The notes under the pieces were generated by a model. It worked only from the letters and a program-made list of their open reading frames with translations, was not told the origin of the DNA and did no database searches. A stretch of 33,698 nucleotides of DNA. Source: Patescibacteria group bacterium (GTDB lineage: Bacteria; Patescibacteriota; Minisyncoccia; Moranbacterales; SCTJ01). Location: NCBI GenBank assembly GCA_004297805.1, contig SCTJ01000023.1, positions 1 through 33,698 of the forward strand, read 5' to 3'. Of the stretch, positions 26,643-31,922 are shown piece by piece; position 1 is the stretch's first letter, and each line of letters opens with the position of its first letter. The position numbers and the translations under genes are program-made.

Positions 26643-27041
26643 ATGTTGCGCTTAGCTTTGGGGCATATCTTCACTCAGCATGCGCTGTTCAAGATGCAGC
26701 AGTATGGCCTGTCGGAGCAGCGCGTGAGAAGAGTGATTCGCGCTCCTCAAAGACTGGAGGAGGGTATCGTGAAAAATACTATCGCGGTCATGCAGCCAGT
26801 TTCAGAGAAGCGGGTAGATGGCAAAATGGTTTGGAAACAGGAGATCTGGGTAATGTACATACTGGCGAAGCACAAAGCTCAAAGCGCAAAACGCGAACAA
26901 AACACAAACAAGGCATCGAAAACTGACAAGATAGGACTTAGGCAACTAAAAATCATCAGTGCTTGGCGCTATCCGGGAGTCAGTCCCAAGCGGAACCCCA
27001 TTCCCGAGGAAATTTTACGGGAGCTGGCGAGTCTGAGATAG
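26643..27041 (+). CDS. DUF4258-like small protein
   Basis: FTQHALFKMQQYGLSEQRVRRVIRAPQRLEEGIVKNTIAVMQP resembles DUF4258 (HA..RM..R.I....V..vi..p). Confidence 0.5.
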   Translation: MLRLALGHIFTQHALFKMQQYGLSEQRVRRVIRAPQRLEEGIVKNTIAVMQPVSEKRVDGKMVWKQEIWVMYILAKHKAQSAKREQNTNKASKTDKIGLRQLKIISAWRYPGVSPKRNPIPEEILRELASLR

Positions 27042-27147: not shown

Positions 27148-29121
27148 ATGTTCGTCAGTCAATATTTGGAGCAAAAAAAAGTTTCGCTCAGTGAAGAGAA
27201 TCAGCACAAACCAGCCCTCAAACGCAAGGGATTGGTTTTTTTGATTTCGTTTTTGTTGCTGTTGCTAATACCTTTTGCTAAGGCTAAAGCGGTGGCTCCA
27301 CTGGTTGCGATTATATTGGGCGCTGTTGTTATTGGAACCATCGTTTTTTCTCAAGGTTCAGTTAATCCTTTGTTGGCGCCAATCAATATTGCTCTGTATG
27401 CCGTGCTAGCCGTAATGGTGCTACTGATAAATATTGCCGGTGCAATTCTAGACGTAGCAGTAAACTCTCAAGCATATAGTCAGCTCCTGGCACATGAGTC
27501 GGTGGTTTCAATGTGGGGGTTCATCAGAGATTTCCTTAACATGCTTTTTATTTTCGCCCTGCTTTTCTCGGCCTTTTGCACTATCTATCAGGTTTCTAAA
27601 TATCATCTCAAAAATGTGGTGCTATGGGTGGTTCTGATGGCGCTGTTGGTCAATTTTAGCTATCCGATCACACGATTTGTTATAGATGCAGCCAACATAC
27701 CGATGTTCTATTTTCTGAATGAAGGTCTGACACCCAACAAAAATGGTCAGATCTCGCCTTATTTCTCTCCGATGACAAACATCGGTCTATTGACTGAGAA
27801 AGCTCTTTCGCCAGGAATAGCCAGTAGTATGAGTTCTGATACAACATTAAATCTAATTTTTGCAATTATATTCCTATTTATATTCATGGTGACATTGATG
27901 GGATTTGCCATTACATTATTAGTTCGCATGCTCATCTTGGTAATTCTTCTGATTCTTTCCCCGGCCGGTTTTACTCTATACGCTTTCCCGTCGACCAAAC
28001 ATTACGCAGGTCAATGGTGGGATAAACTCATGAAAACGGCTTTTCAGGGGCCAGTCCTGGCATTTTTTCTTTATCTGGCGATTAGTATGTTTACCATGCA
28101 GAGCGCTGATCTCGATGAATTCAAAGAAGGAATAAAGGCAAGCGGTGGCAATGTTGAGCAGTTGGTTATCCTGGGAGTTTATTTTTCAGTCCCAATAGCG
28201 TTGCTTTGGATTGGGCTGAGTATGAGTAGCACTATGGGTGCGGCCGGATCTGGTATGGCGATGAGTTGGGCCAAGTCAGCCGGAAACAAGGTGAGGGGGT
28301 TGGGCAAGGTTGCTTGGACTGGAACGGGCGTGCCTGGTGCAGCTAGCAAGTCATGGGAAGGATTCAAGAAATCCGGCAAATTGTTTGGCAAGCTGCCAAT
28401 AATGGAGGGATCTGCCGCACGTGGTGATCGAGAAAGTCGTTGGGCTGCGAGAATTACGGGTGGTCGTGGAGCAGCTGCAGCTGAACGCGAAGCCGCACTT
28501 AATAGGCGGGCCAGGGAACGTGCCGACGAACACAAGAAATTTGGAACTGACACCGCTTCTCTTCATCAAGCACTGGGTAGTAATGATGCAGTTGAGCGGC
28601 GTGCGGCCTTGATGGCTAGTATGGACGGCAATAAGTGGCAAAACGCCGCACACCTTCAGGCTGCGCTGGCTGCTGCCAAGAAGTCAGACGGCAGAACCAC
28701 TGACACTGAGCTGCAGAAACAGGTAATAGACAAGCTCAAGGCAGACGAAATGCATAATCTGGTCACGAATTATGACGAGCTGAGAGATGTGATGGCTGCT
28801 GCTGGCAATCCGGATGTTAAGAGCGCTATGACTGCCAAAATGCGAGATCAAAATGCTAAAACGCTCATTGAATACGAGGCTAATAATGGTGTTCGAAGCG
28901 CCGAAGAATCAGTTCGCGAGCATCTAGGTAAAATGAAGGCTGGAAAATTGGCTGATCAGAGGGGGATGCACGAAACAGGATTTCTGGAAGGCAATACTGC
29001 CGTTGGCAACGCAGTCGGGGCGCATTTGCATGGAAAAAATGCTGAGTATAAGCAAAAAATGTTAGAAGAAGGTCAAGATTCGGCTATAAGGGCCTGGCGT
29101 AGTGCCGGAATCGTTGATTAG
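27148..29121 (+). CDS. VirB6/TrbL-like polytopic membrane protein of a T4SS-like apparatus, with large Ala/Lys-rich C-terminal region
   Basis: Many TM segments (FVSQ..., LIPFAKAKAVAPLVAIILGAVVIG, LLINIAGAILDVAVNSQAYSQLLAHESVVSMWGFIRDFLNMLFIFALLFSAFCTIYQVSKYHLKNVVLWVVLMALLVNFSYPITRFVIDAANI, LLVRMLILVILLILSPAGFTLYAFPSTKHYAGQWWDKLMKTAFQGPVLAFFLYLAI), then soluble Ala-rich tail. Confidence 0.65.
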   Translation: MFVSQYLEQKKVSLSEENQHKPALKRKGLVFLISFLLLLLIPFAKAKAVAPLVAIILGAVVIGTIVFSQGSVNPLLAPINIALYAVLAVMVLLINIAGAILDVAVNSQAYSQLLAHESVVSMWGFIRDFLNMLFIFALLFSAFCTIYQVSKYHLKNVVLWVVLMALLVNFSYPITRFVIDAANIPMFYFLNEGLTPNKNGQISPYFSPMTNIGLLTEKALSPGIASSMSSDTTLNLIFAIIFLFIFMVTLMGFAITLLVRMLILVILLILSPAGFTLYAFPSTKHYAGQWWDKLMKTAFQGPVLAFFLYLAISMFTMQSADLDEFKEGIKASGGNVEQLVILGVYFSVPIALLWIGLSMSSTMGAAGSGMAMSWAKSAGNKVRGLGKVAWTGTGVPGAASKSWEGFKKSGKLFGKLPIMEGSAARGDRESRWAARITGGRGAAAAEREAALNRRARERADEHKKFGTDTASLHQALGSNDAVERRAALMASMDGNKWQNAAHLQAALAAAKKSDGRTTDTELQKQVIDKLKADEMHNLVTNYDELRDVMAAAGNPDVKSAMTAKMRDQNAKTLIEYEANNGVRSAEESVREHLGKMKAGKLADQRGMHETGFLEGNTAVGNAVGAHLHGKNAEYKQKMLEEGQDSAIRAWRSAGIVD

Positions 29122-29163
29122 AAATATTTTCAGAAAAAGTTAACAAAGGAGCAGAACTGTCAT

Positions 29164-30033
29164 ATGGAAGAATCGAAACTCGAAGCTTATTATTATCCCA
29201 TGTTGGTGTCGGCTGTTTCTGGTAGGCCAAACACGGCGGAGGAGCTTGTCGCGAGGTGGAAATTTTTCAAGAGTCTGCCTCAAATTTTTCGAGACATTCT
29301 CATGTCTCAAGAGGTTCCTCTGGCTGTAAAATATATCTCAGAACAATATACACTAGGCGAGGCAAGAACGACCGAGCTTTCTCGGATCATAAGAGGGGTA
29401 TTTTTTGGAGAATTAACCAAAGAGCAATTGTCACAGGCAGTGGCGCAACGCCTGGGTATTCAGGAGCAGCGGGCAGCTCAAGAAATTGCTAAACTGATTG
29501 ACACACGGATACTCTCAATTACTCCCAAGCCGGAAGAGCCGGATCTTAGCGGACTGAATCAATTGTCGATCTCTGAGGCAATCCGGAGATATAAAGGTGT
29601 TGGCGAGCAATTGGTTAGTGCCAATCCTCTGAAACTTCGTATTTTTCCTTCGCCCGTTAAACCTTCCATCAAGAATTGGATCGCTGACTATCAAGATAAT
29701 CTTGGAGTACAAAAGCACGAGATGATGGAGCGCGGAAATTACTTGTTCCACAGCGAGAATACTAAAAGACTTACCGCTGGGGAGCGTCAGAAACTGGGGA
29801 TCGTGCTGAAGTCGTTGGATGACAATTCACCCGTGTTGGTCAATCCGGAATTGCAGGAAATAGTGTTTCCGCGGATGGAAGGCGGGGCACAGATGGAAAC
29901 CCCAGTAAGCCAGGGTCCTGCTCAATCCCAAGGCGGAGTGAGGTTTTCTTCCTCGCAAACTTTGCCGGCTGAACGGGGTGCTGCGCCACAGCGCCCGTCA
30001 CTCGGTAATCGCCCGGGCGGAGGGATGGTATAA
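29164..30033 (+). CDS. Hypothetical protein of the T4SS-like locus
   Basis: 289-aa ORF, helical N-terminal half and Pro/Gln/Gly-rich C-terminus; directly downstream of the VirB6-like gene. Confidence 0.65.
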   Translation: MEESKLEAYYYPMLVSAVSGRPNTAEELVARWKFFKSLPQIFRDILMSQEVPLAVKYISEQYTLGEARTTELSRIIRGVFFGELTKEQLSQAVAQRLGIQEQRAAQEIAKLIDTRILSITPKPEEPDLSGLNQLSISEAIRRYKGVGEQLVSANPLKLRIFPSPVKPSIKNWIADYQDNLGVQKHEMMERGNYLFHSENTKRLTAGERQKLGIVLKSLDDNSPVLVNPELQEIVFPRMEGGAQMETPVSQGPAQSQGGVRFSSSQTLPAERGAAPQRPSLGNRPGGGMV

Positions 30034-30076
30034 AAATAGTGGTCTACCTGAGTTCATATCTAATTATTCCAAGAGT

Positions 30077-30136
30077 GTCATGCTGAACCTCAGGCTGGAA
30101 GTATAATCGAATCGGTCTCGGCATCTAAGATGACAT
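30077..30136. repeat. Imperfect inverted repeat of TGTCATGCTGAAC... type
   Basis: TGTCATGCTGAACC...GGTCTCGGCATCTAAGATGACA: termini TGTCAT/ATGACA with imperfectly complementary inner arms. Confidence 0.5.
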
Positions 30137-30165
30137 TTTTCACTGATTTTTTGGCTCTATATAGT

Positions 30166-30492
30166 GTGAAAAAGCTATTATCAATTTTCAAACTATCATT
30201 TTTCATTTTGAGTTTTGCATTTTTAACTTGCACAGCTGTGCACGCTGGCGTTATCGACGACGCTCCCAAAATTACCACTATTCTCTATAGTGCGCTGGAA
30301 TCGCTCTTGTCATTCTTCGGAATTATTGGTATAATAGGCACAGTGATAGCTGGAATCCTGTATTTGGTGTCATCCGGGGATGAGCATCTAGCTGAAATGG
30401 CCAAGCGAGCCATCACCTATTCAGTAATCGGGACAGTAGTGGCCTTCGGGAGTCTAATTGTCGTTCAGACTTTGAGTGCATTTTTCAAATAA
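30166..30492 (+). CDS. T4SS pilin-like protein (VirB2-like) 1
   Basis: GTG start gives signal peptide MKKLLSIFKLSFFILSFAFLTCTAVHAG; two TM segments flanking GILYLVSSGDEHLAEMAKRAITYS. Confidence 0.75.
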   Translation: MKKLLSIFKLSFFILSFAFLTCTAVHAGVIDDAPKITTILYSALESLLSFFGIIGIIGTVIAGILYLVSSGDEHLAEMAKRAITYSVIGTVVAFGSLIVVQTLSAFFK

Positions 30493-30511
30493 TGACGGTG
30501 GAAAATATCCT

Positions 30512-30835
30512 ATGAAGCGAATTCTTCCGTTTCTCAGTGGGGCTCTGATGTTTCCCGGTTTAGCGTCGGCAGCCGATATAATTGTGAAAAATACTCCGAC
30601 TGATGACTACTACCGCACGATTGGCAATGTCCTTACCTATTTTCTGGCAGTGATTGGAATTGTGTCGGTGATTGGGATTGCAGTTTCGGGCGTGCTCTAT
30701 CTCACGGCCGGCGGGGATGAAAAGCGAGTGGAACGAGCTAAGAGTTGGATTGTCTACACGGTGGCGGCACTGGTAGTAACACTGATCGGATATGTGATTT
30801 TAAAATTAGTGAGCCGTTCGATTATAAATAGTTAA
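30512..30835 (+). CDS. T4SS pilin-like protein (VirB2-like) 2
   Basis: MKRILPFLSGALMFPGLASAAD signal peptide; two TMs flanking GVLYLTAGGDEKRVERAKSWIVYT. Confidence 0.8.
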   Translation: MKRILPFLSGALMFPGLASAADIIVKNTPTDDYYRTIGNVLTYFLAVIGIVSVIGIAVSGVLYLTAGGDEKRVERAKSWIVYTVAALVVTLIGYVILKLVSRSIINS

Positions 30836-30866
30836 TTTTTTACAAAGTAAATAACTAAAATAAAAA

Positions 30867-30913
30867 CTGGGTAGTCGGAGCGAGAAAAGCTCAGGTTTTC
30901 CCAGAAAAGGAGG
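30867..30913 (+). promoter_or_regulatory. Leader hairpin and strong Shine-Dalgarno of pilin 3
   Basis: CTGGG(30867)...GAGC-gagaaaa-GCTC...CCCAG(30904), followed by AAAAGGAGGTGACACT-ATG. Confidence 0.6.
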
Positions 30914-30920
30914 TGACACT

Positions 30921-31292
30921 ATGAGAAACAAATTTAAAAAAGTAGCCTATGTCGTGTCATCGTCTGCGATTCTGGGAGCACTCTCAGTCGTGGCGGTGCA
31001 TGCAGCGGGACTGGATGTTCCAGTGCAGGACTCAATGGCTAAAGCTGGGTTCTACACCCTGTTGCAGTATGTTCTGAATTTTATTCTGGCGGTGTTGGGC
31101 GTGCTGGGTATCGTGGGCATTGCCGTGTCTGGTGTGCTCTATATCACTTCCGGTGGCGACGAGAAGCGGACCGAGATGGCCAAGGAATGGATGCTCTATT
31201 CAATCATGGGCTTGGTCATTGCTTTGCTCGGCTACACAATCGTGAAATCGATTGCTAACCTTTTGGGCGGTACCGACGCAGCCAAGTTCTAG
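30921..31292 (+). CDS. T4SS pilin-like protein (VirB2-like) 3
   Basis: Signal peptide MRNKFKKVAYVVSSSAILGALSVVAVHAAG; two TMs flanking GVLYITSGGDEKRTEMAKEWMLYS. Near-ideal SD. Confidence 0.85.
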   Translation: MRNKFKKVAYVVSSSAILGALSVVAVHAAGLDVPVQDSMAKAGFYTLLQYVLNFILAVLGVLGIVGIAVSGVLYITSGGDEKRTEMAKEWMLYSIMGLVIALLGYTIVKSIANLLGGTDAAKF

Positions 31293-31315
31293 CGGTAGAA
31301 AAAAAGACTTTCCTA

Positions 31316-31346
31316 ACAGAGGCACCCTAGGGTGCCTCTGTTTTTT
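31316..31346 (+). terminator. Strong intrinsic terminator
   Basis: ACAGAGGCACC-CTAG-GGTGCCTCTGTTTTTTG. Confidence 0.9.
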
Positions 31347-31350
31347 GTCA

Positions 31351-31379
31351 TAGACGGCATAGGCATGTTCGTGTATAAT
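31351..31379 (+). promoter_or_regulatory. sigma70-like promoter for pilin 4
   Basis: TAGACG - N17 - TATAAT (31374-31379). Confidence 0.55.
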
Positions 31380-31405
31380 GGAAGCAAATATAAATACAAA
31401 TACCT

Positions 31406-31819
31406 ATGAAACAATTTTTCCAGCAAACCATGATTGTTAGTGTTCTGGCCACTCTTTTCGTTTGGGTTGTAGCATTGCCGGCGAAGGTGCAAGCGACGGC
31501 TAATTGTGACAGTGGCTTTGAGGAGATGTCAGGCGTGTGTGTTCCGACTGATACGGGACTTTCAGACAAGACAGTGGGCGAAGTGTTGCAAGTGGCGCTG
31601 GACTGGCTCTTGGCCACGATCGGGGTCTTTGCGATCCTAATGATTGCAATAGCTGGAGTGATGTATATTACCTCGGGCGGTAATGAGAAAAATGTAGAGA
31701 AGGCCAAAAACATGCTGACCTGGGCGATTGCCGGCCTGGCGGTAGCCCTCTTGGGTTATGCCATTGTGGCCACAGTTAATGGAATTTTGCAGGGGGATGA
31801 TGTGTCGAAAGATTTTTAA
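31406..31819 (+). CDS. T4SS pilin-like protein (VirB2-like) 4
   Basis: Signal peptide; CDSGFEEMSGVCV Cys pair; two TMs flanking GVMYITSGGNEKNVEKAKNMLTWA. Confidence 0.8.
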   Translation: MKQFFQQTMIVSVLATLFVWVVALPAKVQATANCDSGFEEMSGVCVPTDTGLSDKTVGEVLQVALDWLLATIGVFAILMIAIAGVMYITSGGNEKNVEKAKNMLTWAIAGLAVALLGYAIVATVNGILQGDDVSKDF

Positions 31820-31841: not shown

Positions 31842-31922
31842 TTGACAACGAGATAATCCTCGTGTATAATGGAGCCTGGAGATTGATGAGTGTGAAAGTT
31901 CGCGACAGGCGAACTTTTATTG
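31842..31922 (+). promoter_or_regulatory. Consensus promoter plus terminator-like leader hairpin upstream of nusA
   Basis: TTGACA (31842-31847) - N17 - TATAAT (31865-31870); AAAGTTCGC-GACAG-GCGAACTTT (31895-31917), then TTATTGTT. Confidence 0.75.

Follow-up and report, generated by a model that had tools for sequence, protein, structure and literature searches.

What kind of apparatus is encoded where a VirB6-like membrane protein is followed by four divergent pilin genes, and where is its motor? This arrangement precedes nusA in a stretch of 33,698 nucleotides (contig SCTJ01000023.1; hereafter the window, meaning the whole stretch analysed) from a genome of the Moranbacteria (Moraniibacteriota), a lineage of the Candidate Phyla Radiation (CPR). 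An earlier reading of the sequence, the original prediction, had proposed an unusual apparatus resembling a type IV secretion system (T4SS). We conclude, with a probability of roughly 0.78, that the locus is half of a single chromosomal T4SS of the monoderm (MPF-FATA-like) type, the pilins of which are co-produced as distinct subunits. Its six open reading frames (ORFs), all on the + strand and followed by nusA, encode a polytopic membrane protein (660 aa), a soluble protein that we term X (289 aa) and pilins 1 to 4 (120, 107, 123 and 137 aa).

The pilins and their family

All four small proteins score above the curated cut-off for PF18895 (T4SS_pilin; 26.6 bits), at 35.4-39.2 bits, and were recovered again in a search of the whole genome, which upholds their earlier assignment as VirB2-like pilins. 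Each has a hydrophobic N-terminal segment and two more hydrophobic helices that flank a G-[DN]-E loop. Pilin 1 (30130..30492; 38.2 bits) carries an AGVIxDAP motif after the signal peptide and belongs to the class designated p1. Pilin 2 (30512, ATG, to 30835; 35.7 bits) is nearest to class p2, the best of the class hidden Markov models (HMMs) for this protein, and does not end in Phe. Pilin 3 (30921..31292; 39.2 bits) combines a p2-like core (class HMM scores of 87.9 for p2 and 71.8 for p3) with a C-terminal Phe, and pilin 4 (31406..31819; 35.4 bits) is of class p4 (102.5, next best 66.9). The Cys pair originally noticed in one of the pilins is the CDSGFEEMSGVC of pilin 4, and in relatives the Cys motif is likewise found only at position 4. 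Pairwise identity among the four proteins is 31-45%, and the longest DNA likeness between copies is a stretch of 55 nt at 78%, confined to pilins 2 and 3.

PF18895 pilins are present in 188 of the 192 genomes sampled across the phylum and in 95 of 96 relatives, nearly all of which carry several. A survey of Patescibacteria T4SSs counts, in 383 assemblies, 441 VirB2 arrays that comprise 2-11 genes and average 25% identity, and suggests a role in host adaptation (Quinonero-Coronel 2025, PMC12102498). A multi-pilin locus is therefore already known in kind, and the description of this one as unusual does not hold for the phylum. Elsewhere in the same genome, on contig C11 (L013:7056-7928, - strand), a pilin (PF18895) and a lysozyme-like SLT_3 domain (PF18896) are joined in one protein, a fusion of the VirB2-VirB1 type. 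A pilin on contig C225 (L014:7763-8236) is near-identical to the pilin part of this protein, lacks the lysozyme and looks like a recent duplicate.

The motor locus and gene order in relatives

Gene order was compared in relatives named Candidatus Moranbacteria, Moraniibacteriota and Parcubacteria. Among 40 fetched genomes, 29 show the order VirB6-X-PrgI(VirB3), in almost all cases together with TrsD and VirB4, eight show VirB6-X-pilins-nusA, two show VirB6-X-nusA without pilins and one shows neither; an overlapping set of 80 named loci comprises 56 that are intact (VirB6-X-PrgI type, a few without X), 10 with pilins and nusA, five without pilins and nine undecided. The VirB6-like gene thus stands beside VirB3/VirB4 in most relatives but not in the genome studied here, in which VirB4 is divided between two contigs: its N-terminal part lies with PrgI and TrsD at the end of C213, and its C-terminal part, the ATPase, at the end of C166. 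These pieces are 66% and 74% identical to the VirB4 of a relative and lack about 20 residues between them, as expected from an assembly break. The VirB4 assignment is supported by PF19044 (2.5e-22) and by VirB4 NCBIfam matches; PrgI lies above the PF12666 cut-off, TrsD matches NF041427 with an E value of 4e-9, below the cut-off of that model, and both adjoin VirB4. This second locus also encodes two pilins, one Cys-rich and one with two domains, the latter passing the 27.9-bit cut-off of PF04956 (TrbC/VirB2) with 36.6 bits. The original prediction saw correctly that no ATPase gene precedes nusA in the window; of the two possibilities that it offered, a motor outside the window has been found and an absent motor can be discarded.

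Eighteen genomes, the majority with a split or nusA-linked locus, were tested for VirB4, and all have kept it. In split relatives the motor genes are ordered solute-binding protein-pilin(s)-PrgI-TrsD-VirB4, with a ComM-like gene next in most cases. Several contigs carry both this locus and VirB6, the locus being approximately 11-32 kb upstream and on the same strand. In intact relatives the pilins stand apart as an array of their own. Its usual, though variable, order is solute-binding protein-Cys pilin-p1-p2-(p3)-p4-double pilin, and nusA lies within a few kb of about half of the 20 such arrays that were fetched. Taken together, the VirB6-X-PrgI-TrsD-VirB4 order of relatives and the location of the motor genes on other contigs indicate that the locus is one half of a single chromosomal T4SS, the modules of which have been rearranged. 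The simplest account is a rearrangement between the two loci, which has placed pilins 1-4 behind VirB6-X where other lineages have PrgI-TrsD-VirB4. It had been proposed at the outset that absence of the pilins from relatives retaining the VirB6-like gene would count against the prediction. Pilins are indeed absent beside VirB6 in most relatives, but the same classes are present in another array, often near nusA, so that this absence does not refute it. A consequence of the split is that searches confined to the virB4 neighbourhood miss the pore and pilin genes in such lineages.

No match to the outer-membrane core protein TrbI/VirB10 (PF03743) was obtained in this genome with a profile that does match controls; VirB8 (PF04335) gave no match either in the genome or in the controls, and VirD4 (PF02534) gave none in the genome, in which two TraG-D_C proteins are encoded on other contigs. 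Of the two AAA_10 matches, one is the VirB4 C-terminus on C166; the other, on C12, falls in a 766-aa ORF that is flanked by a LexA-like and a recA-like gene and looks like a protein of the FtsK/SpoIIIE type.

Other features of these arrays were observed. In most genomes the first gene of the array, whether pilin or motor, encodes a family 1 solute-binding lipoprotein (L012:4172-5584 in the genome studied here). The adjacent coordinates L012:5599-7035 encode a Cys-rich protein of 478 aa with a pilin-like N-terminus, which is missed by Pfam and is conserved in motor loci. In L094, L106, L119, L144 and L146, VirB6-X directly precedes nusA with no recognisable pilins between, and those genomes with this arrangement that were searched (G020 and G026) have pilins elsewhere.

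Pilins group by array position

To what extent are the four pilins interchangeable? A tree was constructed from the 48 pilins of 12 four-gene arrays, with 200 label shuffles as the comparison. The array-position label requires only 5 changes on this tree (minimum 3), as against a mean of 27.1 for shuffled labels and with none of the 200 shuffles as low, whereas the genome label requires 42. Position-1 pilins, including that of the window, form one group (99/93), and all 12 contain an AG[VT]Ix[DE]A motif that occurs at no other position. A C-GF-GVC pattern is similarly restricted to position 4, where it is present in 9 of 12 pilins; the position-4 proteins, which measure ~134-528 aa in relatives, possess a Cys-rich ectodomain that varies greatly in length. 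A C-terminal Phe is found in 35 of the 36 pilins at positions 2-4 (window pilins 3 and 4, and the 11 other arrays) and in only one of 12 at position 1, against a background in the same loci of 5 among 454 recognised non-pilin ORFs and 37 among 712 long ORFs of any kind. The classes and their order are kept across families, and intact relatives carry colinear Cys-p1-p2-p4-Dpil arrays.

Sorting by array position rather than by genome speaks for distinct subunits and against alternative or phase-variable copies; the four pilins look like fixed parts that differ from one another. The original prediction had offered heteropolymeric and alternately expressed pilins as two options; stable, distinct subunits fit the data better than alternate expression. 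The best inference is a putative heteromeric pilus. What is new here is the sorting of pilins by position, the C-terminal Phe at positions 2-4 and the recognition of X as a conserved T4SS-linked protein. With position-conserved classes, what had been published as a "variable array" becomes a list of parts, testable subunit by subunit.

The VirB6-like protein and protein X

The polytopic protein extends from 27139 (TTG) or 27148 (ATG) to 29121 and has a long soluble C-terminal tail. Of 96 relatives, 84 encode a homolog. Pfam gives no match to the untrimmed protein, and PF04610 (TrbL/VirB6) matches 13 of 43 homologs (best 1e-8). When the AlphaFold model (pLDDT 80) was compared with the PDB by Foldseek, R388 TrwI/VirB6 chains appeared at ranks 1, 2 and 4, although these matches are non-significant (probability 0.80-0.93, TM score 0.26-0.35 by query, E 0.38-0.71). 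Gene order in relatives, which is the strongest argument, together with the TrbL/VirB6 matches of homologs and this best, non-significant fold match, supports the reading of the protein as VirB6-like, as had been suggested from the sequence. In one family of the order VirB6-like genes are multiplied, three being located around X and PrgI in L078 (G059) and two in L079 (G013). A small DUF4258-like protein is encoded at 26643-27041, upstream of VirB6 in the window, and a homolog is found near VirB6 in opposite orientation in G001 (L047).

In 69 of 75 loci the first recognised gene downstream of VirB6 is that of protein X (29164..30033 in the window), which is itself followed by PrgI in 52, by pilins in 12 and by nusA in five. 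Its AlphaFold model is confident (pLDDT 87) and mostly helical, and has no significant match in the PDB; searches of Pfam, NCBIfam, PHROGs, PDB sequences, PDB folds and plasmids (tblastn) yielded no credible match. A profile of X matches 36 of the 192 phylum genomes, that of the window included. Matches outside the order are partial and weak, so that X may be order-specific or very diverged. We take X to be an undescribed T4SS-associated protein, and as such it is a candidate for a missing T4SS component.

Expression signals

Pilin 3 is preceded by a strong Shine-Dalgarno sequence, AAGGAGGTGA (30907..30916, + strand), and, judged from this ribosome-binding site only, is a candidate major pilin. 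Between pilins 3 and 4 lies an intrinsic terminator (31315..31342, + strand) with a 14-bp stem of 100% complementarity followed by a T run, and then a promoter-like site (31351..31379, + strand; 10/12). The promoter of pilin 4 shares an identical 14-mer, TCGTGTATAATGGA (31369-31382 and 31860-31873), with the consensus nusA promoter, TTGACA-17-TATAAT (31842..31870, + strand; 12/12). In relatives the gap between positions 3 and 4 is -1 nt in L087, 9 nt in L089 and 11 nt in L131, where the near contact or overlap suggests co-transcription, and reaches 481 nt in others.

Alternative explanations

Several observations weigh against a T4SS with four distinct, co-produced pilins. The membrane part of the window's own VirB6-like protein matches TrbL/VirB6 with an E value of only 0.0085, below the curated cut-off, and all four pilins fall below the cut-off of PF04956 (17.4-25.5 bits). 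In the position tree, which is based on only about 90 aligned residues per pilin, pilins 2-4 of the window cluster together (97/90) and not with the positional classes. As the class HMMs assign these three to p2, p2 and p4, it is possible that re-duplication, gene conversion or a long-branch effect has operated in this lineage. The terminator and promoter-like site ahead of pilin 4 suggest that this gene may be separately controlled here.

One alternative is that no extracellular pilus is formed: the hairpin proteins would either build a short conduit in the membrane or cell wall or remain pooled in the membrane around the VirB6 pore. MPF-FATA conjugation systems lack a VirB2 pilus (PMC12102498), no TrbI/VirB10 gene was found in this genome, and the publications consulted contain no report of a CPR T4SS filament. 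We nevertheless consider this unlikely, since the signal peptides, two helices and charged loop match VirB2 pilins, and the archaeal CedA1/TedC pili are filaments produced by a monoderm VirB2/VirB6/VirB4 set (PMC9905601).

A scheme of alternative or antigenic pilins, of which one at a time is expressed or swapped to fit different host strains, is improbable. The high divergence of the four pilins, the variable length of the position-4 ectodomain, the signals ahead of pilin 4 and the clustering of pilins 2-4 speak for this scheme, but different families share the same classes in the same order, and the genes at positions 3 and 4 are almost in contact, or overlap, in the three relatives noted above. 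Long DNA identity between copies is also wanting, apart from the 55 nt shared by pilins 2 and 3. Phase variation by an inverted promoter was rejected, as no inverted repeats suited to such a switch were seen.

Finally, it is extremely unlikely that the locus is a separate motorless apparatus or a decaying T4SS remnant, as might be supposed from the lack of an ATPase in the window and of an intact VirB4 on any contig, because VirB4, PrgI and TrsD genes are present in the genome, VirB4 is broken by contig ends only, all genes are open and relatives keep all modules.

A possible mode of assembly

The biology of VirB2, VirB4 and VirB6, applied to the gene content, module linkage and pilin classes observed here, suggests a route from Sec insertion through extraction and assembly to host contact. 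Each pilin would be inserted by Sec as a hairpin of two helices, its charged G-D-E-K loop lying in the cytoplasm. VirB4, with VirB3/PrgI as its anchor, would then extract the pilins onto a VirB6 platform. All of them would be co-produced, and within a single short pilus or conduit they may take up differing places, as bulk, base, tip or adaptor subunits. Position 4 would bear a Cys-rich surface domain of variable length that touches the host cell.

A more far-reaching proposal, which we advance tentatively and think rather less than an even chance, is that the CPR T4SS forms one obligatorily heteromeric tubular pilus in which six or more conserved classes of pilin (Cys, p1, p2, p3, p4 and two-domain) each have their own place, with X as a core component. 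We know of no other T4SS pilus with such a division of labour among its pilins.

Comparison with known systems

The published T4SSs of Patescibacteria resemble the present one in having chromosomal VirB4, TrsD, PrgI/VirB3 and VirB6, arrays of divergent VirB2-like pilins and, mostly, no outer-membrane core, and relaxase is recorded as rare in the phylum (PMC12102498). In contrast, VirB6, X and pilins 1-4 of the window lie apart from the motor module, and we found no mention of protein X or of positional pilin classes in the parts of that publication consulted. In Southlakia epibionticum, the one species tested, the CPR T4SS with its pilin series is essential (Wang 2023, PMC10633639); six divergent pilins have been counted within the T4SS cluster of strain ML1 and a pilus-like conduit has been speculated upon (FEMS review, PMC12857230). 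This organism differs in belonging to the class Saccharimonadia and in having one continuous cluster (SEML1_0006-0019) rather than two loci.

The nearest NCBIfam relative of the window pilins, below its cut-off, is the mycoplasma pilin-like Mbov_0395 (NF045849), but this is located on an integrative and conjugative element (ICE). The archaeal Ced/Ted DNA-import pili share a minimal monoderm VirB2/VirB6/VirB4 set, although the solved pili are described as single-pilin, with no four-class array (PMC9905601). Tandem, divergent VirB2 genes are also found in Bartonella and Anaplasma, for which alternative variants have been proposed, with a similar suggestion for the CPR arrays (PMC12102498). These bacteria are diderm, and according to the same source their variation is ascribed to host or immune interaction, whereas the pilin classes described here are conserved by position.

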